A stretch of 64,000 bases of DNA from Planctomycetota bacterium (GTDB lineage Bacteria; Planctomycetota; Planctomycetia; Planctomycetales; Planctomycetaceae). The notes below the pieces were generated by a model. It saw only the letters and a program-made list of their open reading frames with translations. It was not told the origin of the DNA and ran no database searches. Numbering within the stretch: the first letter of the stretch is position 1; each line of letters starts with the position of its first letter. The DNA is taken from NCBI GenBank assembly GCA_022600195.1, contig JAHZKX010000051.1, forward strand, positions 310,001 through 374,000, read 5' to 3'. Both the position numbers and the translations under genes were made by a program. Shown here piece after piece: positions 3,950 through 61,841 of this stretch.

Positions 3950-5044
3950 ATGTCAGATATGAATAGTAGTAATTCACTGCTTATGCAGGAAGCAAACAAA
4001 TCAGGGGCGCATTCCACCTGCTCTGAATGTGGCACGGATGAGCCCTGGGGGCTTTCATCGTGGTGTCCGCAATGCGGCTTCTATCCGAAGCTGGGAAAAT
4101 GTGTGGGTCATTCTGATGTTCAACAGGAAACAGAAACCAAAGCACAGCCTCAAACGATTTGGGAATTAATTCCGGAGTGGGGATGGATTCTTGCGATTGG
4201 TACGATTGCTGCGATCGGCTTAAGTGTTGGCGGACGTTTTTATTGCAGTAGTACTTCTGAATTATGTCTGTGGACAATAACACAAGCGAGTATTGGCCTG
4301 TGTCTCTTTTTGATCGGACATGTCATTGTTTATTTAAATGCAGTCTCAAAGTCATTTGAATTTGGCATGATGAGTATTTTCCTGACACCACTTAAAATCT
4401 GGGGACCGACGATCCGCCGTTTTCCGGCAGGAGCCTGGAAATTAGATATGGCAATCTGGGGGCTGACATTACTGGTGGGTGCATTTGCGATCGTTGGTGG
4501 TTTTGAATTTGATTCATTATTCAAGGACTGGGGCGTCCGGAAACGTGCAAATATCAATCTGGTGGCATCTGTCGTCGACCGTGCGAAGGAATCAGAGGGA
4601 GGAGGTGCGGAGAATCTGGAAGACGCACTAAACGATTTTGCTGGTGGAAGTGAAGAAGAAAAAACGAAGGCAAAGAAAGTGGCTGCCAGTTTACCTGTAG
4701 AAGCGGCACCGAAGCTCATTGAATTTGATTGTTTGCTGGTGGGCTATACCACATTGTCCAACGGCAAGATTGATTCTGTGCTGTTAGCCGCTTCTCATAA
4801 TAAACAATTAGTCTATGCGGGATCCATTTACGCAAGTGATGTTCCTGAAGAAGTGCGGAAAGCCTGGCAGGCTCAACTGCCAAGCTTGAAGCAATCGGCG
4901 CCTTTCGTGAAAATCAATCGGTCAGCAACCTGGTTGAAACCAAAAATCACGCTCAAGGTGGCTTCCAAAGGCTGGGGAGAGACGAATCTACGATTGCTCA
5001 AACCTCAGTTTGTCTCACTCTTGCAGGAAATCAGTCTCGATTAA
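3950..5044 (+). CDS. Zinc-ribbon membrane protein of unknown function
   Basis: A 364-residue protein. It begins with a four-cysteine zinc ribbon (C24-x2-C27, C39-x2-C42). Hydrophobic segments follow at about 65-90, 100-125 and 160-185. A charged stretch rich in E and K comes next (about 205-245), then a soluble alpha/beta C-terminal part with no recognisable motif. The layout suggests a cytoplasmic metal-binding head and a membrane anchor, but I do not recognise the family. The ribosome binding site is weak. It has its own terminator and appears monocistronic. Confidence 0.75.
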   Translation: MSDMNSSNSLLMQEANKSGAHSTCSECGTDEPWGLSSWCPQCGFYPKLGKCVGHSDVQQETETKAQPQTIWELIPEWGWILAIGTIAAIGLSVGGRFYCSSTSELCLWTITQASIGLCLFLIGHVIVYLNAVSKSFEFGMMSIFLTPLKIWGPTIRRFPAGAWKLDMAIWGLTLLVGAFAIVGGFEFDSLFKDWGVRKRANINLVASVVDRAKESEGGGAENLEDALNDFAGGSEEEKTKAKKVAASLPVEAAPKLIEFDCLLVGYTTLSNGKIDSVLLAASHNKQLVYAGSIYASDVPEEVRKAWQAQLPSLKQSAPFVKINRSATWLKPKITLKVASKGWGETNLRLLKPQFVSLLQEISLD

Positions 5045-5079
5045 CTTTTCTTGTCGGGACTATGAAAAAACCGAGTATG

Positions 5080-5110
5080 GCCCTGCTGTATTAACAGCAG
5101 GGCTTTTTTT
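5080..5110 (+). terminator. Intrinsic terminator
   Basis: A perfect 10-bp stem (5080-5089 with 5094-5103) with a 4-nt loop ATTA is followed by seven T. It terminates the zinc-ribbon gene. Confidence 0.93.
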
Positions 5111-5242
5111 ATTTTGCTGTGAAACGGTGACGGTTTCCTGCTCTATCGCCGGTTCTCTGTGTTGGGGGTCTGTTATCCCGGCCCTTGCTTGTTAAAATAG
5201 CAGGAAAGTTATTTCATTCAATAGAATCAGGCGATCAACACC

Positions 5243-6283
5243 ATGAATCCGGAACTGGAACGTTATAGTCGGCAAGTCCTCTTTTCAGAGTTGGGTGAAG
5301 CGGGTCAAACCCGTATGATGCAGGGCCGCGTTTTATTATGTGGATGTGGTGCTCTGGGGACGGTATTAGCAGAGACCCTGGTCAGGGCGGGTGTGGGTCA
5401 TATCAAAATCGTTGATCGTGATTTTGTCGAACTGAGCAATTTGCAGCGACAGGTGCTGTTTGATGAAACGGACGTGGCCGCCAAACTTCCCAAAGCAATC
5501 GCTGCTGTCGAAAAACTGAAAAAGATCAACAGCGAAGTCCAGATCGAGCCTATAGTCGAAGATATTGATCATACTAATATTTTAGCCCTGGCAAAGGATG
5601 TCGATTTAATTCTGGATGGCACAGATAATTTTGAAGTGCGTTATTTGATTAATGATGTGTCACTAGAGCTGGGGATTCCCTGGATCTATTGCGGGTGTAT
5701 TGGCAGCACCGGACAGACGATGACAATTTTGCCAGGTAAGTCTGCCTGTCTGCGTTGTTTAATCGATTCGGCACCAGAGCCGGGCAGCACAGAAACCTGT
5801 GATACTGCGGGAATACTGGGGCCGACTGTCAATGTAATTGCATCTTTGGAAGCCATCAGTGCATTCAAAATTCTTTCGGGACGCGAAGATTTGATCAAGC
5901 CGGTTCTGACGGTCGTTGATGTCTGGGAGGGATCGTTTCGACAGATGAGTGTTGCTGATCTCAGAGAGAAAGCGGGCTGTAAAGCCTGCCATCAGGGAGA
6001 ACGGATCTGGCTGAAAGGAGAGCAAGGTTCGCGTACGACACAATTGTGTGGCAGAAATGCTGTTCAGGTTTCTCCCGCCGAAAAAGGTCGCATCTCATTT
6101 GAAGATCTTGCTGAAAAGCTCGAGCATTCGGGGGCCGTCGAATTTAACGCGTATCTGCTCAGGCTGAATTTGAAAGATCCCGATTATGAAATCAGCCTGT
6201 TTCGTGATGGTCGCGCCATCATAAAAGGCACAGATGACCCCGCAGCCGCAAAAACCATTTACGCTCGCTATATCGGCAGTTAA
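5243..6283 (+). CDS. ThiF/MoeB/HesA-family E1-like adenylyltransferase
   Basis: An enzyme of the ubiquitin-activating E1-like family. It adenylates the C-terminal glycine of a small sulfur-carrier protein (ThiS or MoaD type). The N-terminal RYSRQVLF and nucleotide loop G34-C-G-A-L-G39 are visible. So are the acidic D-R-D around 58-60 with NLQRQVLF after it, the GTDNFEVRYL segment near 130, two zinc cysteine pairs (CLRC near 172, CKAC near 248) and TCDTAGILGP between them. A C-terminal extension of about 70 residues ends in DGRAIIKGTDDPAAAK. No ThiS, MoaD or rhodanese partner lies nearby, so the pathway (thiamine, molybdopterin or another) cannot be told from context. Confidence 0.9.
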   Translation: MNPELERYSRQVLFSELGEAGQTRMMQGRVLLCGCGALGTVLAETLVRAGVGHIKIVDRDFVELSNLQRQVLFDETDVAAKLPKAIAAVEKLKKINSEVQIEPIVEDIDHTNILALAKDVDLILDGTDNFEVRYLINDVSLELGIPWIYCGCIGSTGQTMTILPGKSACLRCLIDSAPEPGSTETCDTAGILGPTVNVIASLEAISAFKILSGREDLIKPVLTVVDVWEGSFRQMSVADLREKAGCKACHQGERIWLKGEQGSRTTQLCGRNAVQVSPAEKGRISFEDLAEKLEHSGAVEFNAYLLRLNLKDPDYEISLFRDGRAIIKGTDDPAAAKTIYARYIGS

Positions 6284-59117: not shown

Positions 59118-59348
59118 TCAAAAGATGCTGTAAATCACGATTTGAATTGCCAAAGCGAGGCAGGCCCATATTTTCAAGTTTTGATACCAGTGAGTCGCAT
59201 TGTCCGGTGTCGTGGTTTCCCGTGGTAGCCGTAAGACCCACAAAAAGACGGCAATCAAAGTTCCCAAAAACAGGGCGCGCACACACCAGAGTGGAATCTG
59301 AACAACCAGGTCACGAATGAAATTACCGATATGATGGAGAGGCGTCAT
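59118..59348 (-). CDS. Small membrane protein coupled to the sodium symporter
   Basis: 76 residues with two hydrophobic segments (about 18-42 and 58-75). Its ATG at 59348 overlaps the symporter stop by four bases (ATGA), and GGAGGC precedes it, so the two genes are translationally coupled on the minus strand. The layout resembles the small partner of PanF/YhdT-type sodium symporters, but I cannot assign the family. Confidence 0.75.
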   Translation of the reverse strand: MTPLHHIGNFIRDLVVQIPLWCVRALFLGTLIAVFLWVLRLPRETTTPDNATHWYQNLKIWACLALAIQIVIYSIF

Positions 59349-60943
59349 GCTTGCCTCCTTTTTGGTTTTGTGCCGAAGACCAGGCCCTCAATTTTTTCTG
59401 ATGGCTCAGGCTTCGTGAGAAAACTGATGATGACAATCAGAGAGAATGAGACCACAAAGGCCCAGATCGAAAAGTACAGAAACGGTTCTGAAATCTGGAA
59501 CAGGGGATCAATATCCAGCCATGTATAAACGGCTTCCTGATTCAGTGTAAACAGAGTGATTGAGAAACAGACTCCTACTATGAAACCAACAAAGGCGGCG
59601 ATCCCGGTTGCCCGTTTCCATAACAGACCGGTTAATAAAATCGCCAACGCGGGTCCCTGGAAGAACGCCATTAATGTCTGGAAGATCGTATAAATACCTT
59701 CGCTTCGTTTCATTAGAAAGAACGAAAAACCAATCGCCCAGAATACAAGTAGCAGTGTCACGATGCGGCCGATCTTCAAGAGAGATTGATCACTGGCATC
59801 TCTGCGATAAAAGCGTTTGTAAAAGTCGTTGGTCACAATCGTTGAAGCGGAGTTGAGATAAGAATCAATGCTGGACATTAAAGCCGCCAGAAACGCGGCC
59901 AGGAACAGGCCTTTCAAACCGACCGGTAGCAAATGCGAAATCAACTCGGGAAACGCCTGATCTCCGTCTGTCAGTTCCGGGAATTTCACAAACGCGATTA
60001 AGCCGGGTACTGCAACAACAACGGGAATCAGATTTTTTAATAACGCCCCCCAGACATAGGCGGCTTTCGCATCAAATTCACTCTTTGCACCCAGTGATCT
60101 CTGCACAATGGCCTGATTGCCGATCCAGTATGCGGGGCTCAAAATCAAAGCCAGCCCAAAGAAAATTCCCGTCCAGGGGAAGGGCGTGTCCGCATCAGCG
60201 GGCAGGATGAGTGAGGTATGCAGTTCGTTCTGTGCTGTATTGAGTGTTTGTTGTTCGGCCGCGGATTCGGCTTGTTTCTGCCTCTGTATTTGCTCTTGCT
60301 GTTTGATTTTGGTGTGAAACTGTTCGATACCACCGAGATCAATGATGCCCAATACCAGCACCAGCAGACAGCCACCAATCATGATCAGGCATTGAATCAT
60401 GTCTGTATAAACGACTGCTGCCAGACCACCTGAAATCGTATAGACGCCGACCAGAAATGCGGTGAGATAAATACATTGATTGACGGTCAAACCCAGATGC
60501 ACGTGCATCATTTTCGCGGAAGCCAGTAGCATGATTCCCAGATTACAAGCCATGAAAATAATCCAGCAGACAGCGAGTGCAGAGCGGACCGCGACATTAA
60601 ATCGACGTTCCATATATTCCGGGATCGTGTAAACGCCACTCCGCCAGAAGAAGGGAATGAACACAAACGCTCCGATAATCATGGCCGGGACACAGCCGAT
60701 CCACTCAAAGTTTCCAACGGCCAATCCATGCTGATATGCGGCGCCACCAGTACCGACAATGTCGACGGCACCGATATCGGTTGCGACCAGTGACATGCCG
60801 ATGGCCCACCAGGGAAGTCGTCGACCGGCCAGAAAGTAATCGGAACCGGTCTTGATTTTGGAGCCGATATACAGACCCAATGCCAGTGTTCCAATCAGAT
60901 AAGCCAGAATGATGGCATAATCGAGAGATGCCAAAGTTTGCAT
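59345..60943 (-). CDS. Sodium:solute symporter (SSS family)
   Basis: 532 residues, about 13 transmembrane helices. Typical SSS features are YIGSKIKTGSDYFLAGRRLPWWAIGMSLVATDIGAVD near the N-terminus, YTISGGLAAVVYTDMIQ near 160, and GLFLAAFLAALMSSIDSYLNSASTIVTNDFYKRFYR near 350 (sodium site region). It cotransports an organic solute with sodium, but the substrate (sugar, acid or amino acid) cannot be told. ATGA overlap with the small membrane gene downstream. Confidence 0.92.
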   Translation of the reverse strand: MQTLASLDYAIILAYLIGTLALGLYIGSKIKTGSDYFLAGRRLPWWAIGMSLVATDIGAVDIVGTGGAAYQHGLAVGNFEWIGCVPAMIIGAFVFIPFFWRSGVYTIPEYMERRFNVAVRSALAVCWIIFMACNLGIMLLASAKMMHVHLGLTVNQCIYLTAFLVGVYTISGGLAAVVYTDMIQCLIMIGGCLLVLVLGIIDLGGIEQFHTKIKQQEQIQRQKQAESAAEQQTLNTAQNELHTSLILPADADTPFPWTGIFFGLALILSPAYWIGNQAIVQRSLGAKSEFDAKAAYVWGALLKNLIPVVVAVPGLIAFVKFPELTDGDQAFPELISHLLPVGLKGLFLAAFLAALMSSIDSYLNSASTIVTNDFYKRFYRRDASDQSLLKIGRIVTLLLVFWAIGFSFFLMKRSEGIYTIFQTLMAFFQGPALAILLTGLLWKRATGIAAFVGFIVGVCFSITLFTLNQEAVYTWLDIDPLFQISEPFLYFSIWAFVVSFSLIVIISFLTKPEPSEKIEGLVFGTKPKRRQA

Positions 60944-61079: not shown

Positions 61080-61841
61080 TCAGGGTTTCTTTTTCTCTAG
61101 AATCGCTTTAATTTGAGGGATCAAAAGATCAGCCACCATCTTCTGGCCTTTTGTATTGGGGTGCATTCCATCGGATAAGAGATCATCGGCTGACTGGCCG
61201 GGCTGTTTCGCATAGTTTTCAAAAGCCGCATAAACATCGACGAGTGGCACTGTTTCTTCTCTCGCGATTTTTTGAACCGTTGGAAGATATTTTTTGAGAG
61301 TGACATTAAATCCATCCGGATTCTTTGCATCATAAGGCGGCTTGTTGTAGAGCTGCTTGGTTTTCACATTCCAGCGCATGGAATTAGGAGTCATCAGGAT
61401 GACGGAAATGTTTTTCTTTTTCAAAGTTCGAATCATGGAGCGCAGATTGGCTTCATATTTTTCATTGGAAACACGCGATCTGGTCTCAGGTGGATTTTTC
61501 CACACATCAATGGCCGAATCATTAATTCCGAATTGAATCACCACGAGATCGGGTCGATGGCGTAACACATCTTTTTCAAAACGCGCTTTCGCTTGCTCCG
61601 TATTATTTCCCCCAATTCCAGAATTGATCACTTTGACGGGAAAACCCAACTGTGGGAGTTCTTTCGCAAGAATCTTTGAATACACGTTCAGCGGCCCACG
61701 AGTTGCCGTCGTGGAATCACCAAATGTGACGATGGTGAATTGTTCTGTCGGCTTTTTCTCTGCTGCCTGCAGCGAAGGACAAAGCAGACTTCCTATAATC
61801 AGTGAGAAGCAGGGTATGAAAGATACAGCACGGTAAAACAT
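61080..61841 (-). CDS. Secreted SGNH/GDSL hydrolase
   Basis: 253 residues with a signal peptide (1-27). The GDS nucleophile block (IVTFGDSTTATRG), the glycine block (GIGGNNTEQAK), the asparagine block in VIQFGINDSAID and the C-terminal DGMHPNTKG (catalytic Asp and His) are all visible. It should hydrolyse an ester, for example an acetyl group of a polysaccharide. AGGA precedes the ATG. Confidence 0.92.
   Translation of the reverse strand: MFYRAVSFIPCFSLIIGSLLCPSLQAAEKKPTEQFTIVTFGDSTTATRGPLNVYSKILAKELPQLGFPVKVINSGIGGNNTEQAKARFEKDVLRHRPDLVVIQFGINDSAIDVWKNPPETRSRVSNEKYEANLRSMIRTLKKKNISVILMTPNSMRWNVKTKQLYNKPPYDAKNPDGFNVTLKKYLPTVQKIAREETVPLVDVYAAFENYAKQPGQSADDLLSDGMHPNTKGQKMVADLLIPQIKAILEKKKP

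Follow-up and report, generated by a model that had tools for sequence, protein, structure and literature searches.

A small protein co-encoded with an SGLT-like symporter probably carries a split-off TM13

The window, a 64,000-nucleotide stretch of DNA from a Planctomycetota bacterium (assembly GCA_022600195.1, contig JAHZKX010000051.1, positions 310,001 to 374,000), encodes an SGLT-like SSS (SLC5) symporter followed directly by a small two-helix membrane protein (Table 1). Profile comparisons and gene neighborhoods suggest that the C-terminal helix TM13 of this symporter was probably split off, and that it is now supplied in trans on a two-helix subunit which would complete or stabilize a Na+/sugar symporter.

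The gene pair and its conservation

A preliminary description of the locus had recognized the upstream gene as encoding an SSS symporter and had pointed to an ATGA overlap and a strong ribosome-binding site before the small gene. Indeed, the large protein matches PF00474 (E 1.9e-73, 248 bits against a cut-off of 22.8) and TIGR00813 (E 6e-91, 305.5 bits against a cut-off of 184), the ATG of the small gene (59348-59346) and the TGA of the symporter gene (59347-59345) both lie within the ATGA, and AGGAGG stands shortly before the ATG. The overlap is more than chance, because a single-sequence search recovered 22 loci from 59 related genomes and all of them share it. From the overlap and the ribosome-binding site, the preliminary description had suggested that the two proteins may be required in a fixed ratio.

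Table 1 Features of the gene pair and its surroundings in the window
Feature	Position	Strand	Basis
Small two-helix membrane protein gene, 76 aa	59118..59348	minus	ORF list; kept as a gene in 22/59 relatives
TM2' (second membrane helix; residues 52-75), putative counterpart of TM13 in symporters of the SGLT/YidK type	59124..59195	minus	hhalign
First membrane helix TM1', residues 20-40, predicted out-to-in	59229..59291	minus	AlphaFold2; direction from charges around the loop
Short N-terminal helix, residues 3-16	59301..59342	minus	AlphaFold2
ATGA stop/start overlap of symporter and small gene	59345..59348	minus	Sequence; same in 22/22 loci
SSS (SLC5) symporter gene, SGLT-like, 532 aa, ends after TM12	59345..60943	minus	PF00474, AlphaFold2
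AGGAGG ribosome-binding site of small gene, 5 bases before ATG	59354..59359	minus	Sequence
TM12, last membrane helix of symporter, residues 488-509	59417..59482	minus	AlphaFold2
GDSL/SGNH-type hydrolase gene upstream of symporter	61080..61841	minus	PF13472, E 2.5e-29

The small gene occurs in 22 of the 59 related genomes, including 15 of the 17 of the same genus with the window's own counted, and these are the same 22 that have a symporter of at least 57% identity (in two pieces in G025 and G031, cut at a contig end in G015). Two genomes with symporters of 44-45% identity, G044 and G048, carry a divergent small gene downstream which the single-sequence search missed. Neither the small gene nor the symporter is present in G011, a genome of the same genus rated 100% complete, or in G005 (76% complete), and the closest symporter relative in G011 is a paralogue at 36% identity. 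In the window's genome, one of the 11 SSS genes has a small neighbor of this family, a count for which L143 was read, the downstream stretch of L141 being short.

Across 392 genomes of the phylum, a profile of the small family (A2, best 14 or fewer candidates per genome) finds 24 genomes, and a symporter profile (A5, best three or fewer candidates per genome) gives 23 matches at 517-808 bits, with the next match at 390 bits. All 23 symporter-profile genomes are among the 24 small-profile genomes, the extra one being G154, whose contig begins inside an SSS gene. The small gene lies directly downstream of each of the 23 symporters at or above 517 bits, and behind none of the seven that were read among the next eight matches. 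Two genomes of the genus of G020, G191 and G245, both rated 100% complete, lack symporter and small gene alike. Absence of the small gene beside orthologous symporters of close relatives, for which the preliminary description had proposed to look, was not seen in the 59 related genomes or at the 23 clade symporters from the 392 genomes. The constant pairing, in 23/23 symporters of the clade and in 22/22 genomes at 57% identity or more, supports its suggestion that the small protein may be an auxiliary subunit.

The pairing extends to distant bacteria. A search of 84,980 species with patterns derived from four divergent family members (A3) gave 102 stretches, 60 of them coding for a relative of the small protein. 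These loci come from Planctomycetota, Aminicenantes, Acidobacteria, Spirochaetes, KSB1, WOR-3, Eisenbacteria, Chitinispirillaceae and Gammaproteobacteria; nearly all are from metagenome bins, Candidatus Uabimicrobium amorphum (L077) being a complete chromosome, and a few duplicate genomes already counted (e.g. L077 and L043). Fifty-eight small genes lie directly behind an SSS-like ORF, which is present only by its end in L047, and in the other two loci, L070 and L089, the small gene stands at the very beginning of the contig. With script-chosen start codons, 40 of the 58 overlap the symporter gene and 54 start no more than 15 bases from its end. Moreover, pairwise identities of the large and small proteins are correlated over 53 loci (r 0.89), the highest value in 1000 permutations being 0.12. 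As judged from the genomes, the small protein is a constant partner of the symporter.

The symporter and its surroundings

The best PDB sequence match of the window symporter is human SGLT1 (E 1.4e-70). Its AlphaFold2 model (pLDDT 87.7; this and the model of the small protein are single chains) has the SGLT2- and SGLT1-MAP17 complexes as best Foldseek matches (8hb0_A, SGLT2, E 5.3e-25) and the LeuT-like SSS fold (7wmv_A, SGLT1, Z 41.4, rmsd 2.6, 517 residues aligned), and VIA-align 2 placed CHT1, SiaT and SGLT in a tie at Z 41-43. The alignments extend over residues 20-570 of SGLT1 (7wmv_A) and 3-517 of vSGLT (3dh4_A). For three chains of SGLT2, the low-confidence tail of the model was placed on the M13 region, carrying the alignment up to residue 638-642. 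The structures of CHT1, SiaT and NIS, which are not known to have a TM13, match the model well at a length of 470-520 residues, suggesting that TM13 is not needed for the fold.

In the window symporter, E80, Y272, W273, K303 and Q422 stand at the positions of hSGLT1 E102, Y290, W291, K321 and Q457, while two positions lining the sugar site of hSGLT1 differ, with D56 for N78 and D61 for H83. Among the partnered symporters, the K321 equivalent is kept in 83/83 and the Q457 equivalent in 82/83. E102, H83 and K321 of hSGLT1 are sugar-site positions; N78, Y290, W291 and Q457 are named in PMC10203128. Within the 60 pattern loci, a galactokinase gene (galK) is found near the symporter in at least four and GalT in at least three (Pfam-checked in L053, L066 and L068), and a GH9 glycosidase gene in at least five (Pfam-checked in L050), these counts being lower bounds because the flanks are 3 kb or less. 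The galactose genes are found only beside distant relatives of the window pair. By these sequence features, the substrate is likely a sugar or sugar derivative.

As to gene order, the galactokinase gene of L053 (324-1487) directly precedes the symporter, and GalT and galactokinase genes lie behind the module in L066 and L068 (about 3954-6108) and, by tblastn, in L076. In the window, the GDSL/SGNH hydrolase gene is probably in the same transcription unit as the symporter. By tblastn it is found beside the symporter in 14 of the 15 same-genus loci, although the match in L115 covers only 38 aa at a contig edge and L121 ends within the symporter. The hydrolase perhaps trims an acylated sugar before uptake.

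Many of the related loci contain further genes. Behind the first small gene, another one with two helices is present in 38/60 loci and also in L043, L129 and L130 (e.g. L050 from about 3307 on, L056 and L066). This second small gene gave sub-threshold Pfam matches only, for five members, and of 40 genomes related to the window's, G044 and G048 alone have it, next to the symporter. The third small gene, compared with TM13, reached a probability of 8%. A fourth gene of about 190 aa (L053:3365-3943, L055:3537-4094), with the motifs YIPYYLF and GEIQGIRMRRVFL and no Pfam match, is present in 23/60 loci according to tblastn with the L053 protein, weakly so in L092. In L052, a second SSS-like ORF of 663 aa with a long tail (4053-6044) lies a kilobase behind the module.

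Relation of the small protein to TM13

The small protein of the window reads THWYQNLKIWACLALAIQIVIYSIF. In its AlphaFold2 model (mean pLDDT 88), the last two of the three helices are hydrophobic, and conservation is concentrated where the second membrane helix begins, the sequence there being W-R-D-L-R-I-W-A in the wider family and W-Y-Q-N-L-K-I-W-A in the window. The preliminary description could not assign a family, and neither could our searches: the best Pfam match of the window protein at E up to 10 is Synaptobrevin at E 0.084, and NCBIfam gives no match. When 36 members of the small family were compared with Pfam at E 0.01, DUF4405 (PF14358) matched two (best E 5.8e-5; the window protein has no match to it), DUF3429 one and GtrA one, and NCBIfam returned one conjugation family for one member (E 0.009). 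In addition, the best PDB match of the family profile is a designed protein at E 1.4, Foldseek with the small protein model found nothing below E 3.4, and the L048 small protein has no match in plasmid records.

The small gene and a built-in TM13 strictly exclude each other. The tail of the window symporter has 11 aa past the profile end without a hydrophobic helix, i.e. no TM13 in the same chain. From 181 SSS-like ORFs, we kept 128 with usable C-termini, dropping those with an open 3' end, with the same last 200 residues or not reaching profile position 440; 88 of them have the small gene behind and 40 do not. In all 88 partnered symporters, the tail after TM12/core profile is at most 29 aa and contains no hydrophobic helix (highest 19-residue mean 0.15). 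The pairing of these 88 is partly by construction, because most were found via the small gene, but their tails are not. The partnerless SSS proteins closest by score (L136, L131, L171, L133, L198, L132 and others) carry a C-terminal helix, and the seven partnerless matches read below 517 bits all have a longer tail that includes a hydrophobic stretch, with a 19-residue mean of 2.06-2.79 in six and a weak 1.32 in L257; the tail of partnerless L260 reads TPWHQNLLVWYAVAAFGMVACYVVFS. Distant partnerless SSS subfamilies (PanF, ActP and PutP-like) are often without a C-terminal helix, and in a set of 148 ORFs, for which redundancy was judged on the last 150 residues, 35 of the 60 partnerless proteins have a hydrophobic tail.

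The small family is also similar to TM13 itself. Aligned by hhalign, its profile matches the C-terminal segment of 31 TM13-bearing symporters with a probability of 88% (E 3.2e-6, score 31.5), in an alignment with TM12-TM13 of 60 columns which reaches the last residue. For comparison, 23 other symporter segments gave at most 3.6% and a score of 16.2, 100 block-wise column shuffles at most 16.5, and the reversed profile 10.0. The TM2' half-profile alone matches TM13 alone at 92% (E 7e-7); when TM2' was compared with all hydrophobic segments, TM13 scored 23.2 and 17.9 and the other 112 at most 12.5, and the helices of the partnered symporters scored at most 14.6 against TM13 over 109 segments. 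In a replicate with six other symporters, from which L259 was excluded as the same gene as L198, the whole profile scored 30.3 on the C-terminal segment (81%, E 1.2e-5) and 20.5 on the next of 26 segments. Speaking against homology, controls on the TM13 segment came close, E. coli YjcH alone scoring 21.8 (31%) and the DUF485 profile 21.1 (17%), and the window's small protein alone scored only 18.6 (16%). The result is clear by profile against profile only: a scan of the 40 partnerless symporters with the small-protein HMM (L085 and L089 excluded) was weak, with TM12-TM13 of YidK best at 9.0 bits (i-E 0.011), TM13 of L133 at 5.2 bits, and a best segment other than TM13 in most of the 40. The similarity to TM13 spans 27 columns, that is, one helix. 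The match is specific but short, and we put most weight on it together with the trade-off.

The idea that TM1' is a copy of TM12 was dropped, its half-profile fitting several helices equally well with no specific match. No natural fusion of symporter and small gene was seen; the long open frames in L027 and L028 represent other frames of GC-rich DNA. In a tree of 81 SSS proteins cut at TM12 (quick method, unrooted), a single branch (SH-aLRT 97) sets the 41 partnered symporters apart from the others; the simplest interpretation is that the split arose once. The tree neighbor of this group is L132, on a long branch, with a built-in TM13 reading ALWRRPIFWAYAVAIVFVALNLYFW.

Known partners of SSS symporters and alternative explanations

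SGLT1/2, vSGLT and E. coli YidK share the SSS core with the window symporter and have TM13 built in, whereas the window symporter ends after TM12 and a second, small protein carries the TM13-like helix. For human SGLTs, PMC9616851 and PMC10203128 describe that MAP17 (PDZK1IP1) touches M13 and that SGLT2 requires MAP17 for uptake. MAP17 must run out-to-in, because in PMC9616851 a nanobody was fused behind its residue 57 and GFP placed in an intracellular SGLT1 loop. Both MAP17 and the window's partner are small membrane proteins linked to an SGLT, and TM1' probably runs out-to-in as MAP17 does; the window's partner differs in bearing a TM13-like helix as well, and no sequence relation is claimed.

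In E. coli, YjcH-ActP (DUF485) and YhdT-PanF (DUF997) likewise combine an SSS symporter with a short two-helix partner and have a stop/start overlap, but their small gene is upstream, their symporters belong to other SSS subfamilies and no family match was found. DUF485 (PF04341) does not match the window protein (E up to 10) or the 36 members (E up to 0.01) and has a profile-profile probability of 1%; DUF997/YhdT has no Pfam match to the window protein or the 36 members either, and YhdT alone reaches 2% against the small profile. The comparison with PanF and YhdT made in the preliminary description therefore holds as a functional parallel and not as a resemblance to the small family, and its remark that the small gene, unlike YhdT, sits downstream is correct, YhdT being upstream of panF in E. 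coli. DUF4212 (PF13937), by its name presumably a sodium/substrate symporter small subunit, is similar in kind but differs in having no Pfam match to the window protein or the 36 members; it occurs in 2/40 relatives and is absent from the window's genome. An independent case of a small partner is found in the window's genome, where a DUF485 gene lies 147 bases before another SSS gene (L141, G000:C83, about 198260-200500). In the open-licence literature, we found no description of this small family or pair, and the words subunit, accessory, YhdT and YjcH are absent from the SSS review PMC7918813. SSS symporters with small partners are known; the present case differs in a family unmatched by the profiles searched, a gene located downstream and a partner symporter without TM13.

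That such partners of other families exist (YhdT-PanF, YjcH-ActP) fits an independent origin of the small protein, as a separate accessory subunit comparable to the DUF485, DUF997 and DUF4212 partners and MAP17, which would stabilize or target the symporter, with TM13 lost and the likeness of TM2' convergent. The DUF485 controls with scores of 21-22 on the TM13 segment and the lack of a counterpart of TM1' in the symporter point the same way. However, we consider this explanation unlikely, given the strict mutual exclusion of small gene and built-in TM13 and an alignment that is in register to the C-terminal end with two symporter sets and well above 112 and 109 non-TM13 segments. Far less probable still is a programmed frameshift yielding one long protein with built-in TM13: the ATGA overlap would permit a shift into the small frame, but 18/58 loci have no gene overlap, with gaps of +1 to +121 by script-chosen starts, and each small gene starts at an ATG or GTG of its own, with a purine-rich ribosome-binding site in the majority of 14 upstream stretches.

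The small protein might also act briefly on the symporter, as a regulator or quality-control factor and not as a stable subunit, which we regard as quite improbable. The match of the CHT1, SiaT and NIS structures to the symporter model is in line with such a role, as these three are not known to have a small partner. MAP17 is reported in PMC10203128 to raise hSGLT2 surface expression. Against a brief action, the constant pairing and coupled start codons favor a standing partner in near-equal amount, without proving one. Finally, M13 of a bacterial SGLT may have been detached and joined to the end of a MAP17-like helix, with TM2' at the M13 site and TM1' at the MAP17 site, a possible but doubtful scenario; if true, the small subunit would be a natural merger of M13 and an accessory helix, and the MAP17 requirement of SGLT2 could be studied in a simple bacterial model.

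For the preferred explanation, a split-off TM13 acting in trans, we propose that in an ancestor of the symporter clade TM13 was separated into its own gene directly behind the large gene, so that TM2' would be the detached C-terminal helix and TM1' an addition. Translational coupling would let both chains be made together and join in the membrane, where TM2' may pack at the position that TM13 takes in a full-length SGLT, on the side of the transporter that moves less. Given the basic residues in front of it, which are expected to remain inside, TM2' would span the membrane in-to-out like TM13, and TM1' out-to-in. In physical contact with the large subunit, the small one would hold it in shape or aid its insertion, allowing uptake of a sugar or sugar-like solute with Na+; by analogy, it likely stabilizes or helps insert the large subunit and is not part of the moving core.

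If true, the split would clearly exemplify the transfer of a transporter helix to a subunit of its own that is always encoded alongside, and a family of small membrane proteins, unassigned and spread over several phyla, would gain a partner and a structural place. Moreover, the role of the peripheral C-terminal helix of SGLT2 and its accessory protein would become testable in bacteria, which is relevant because, to our knowledge, other SSS transporters have neither.
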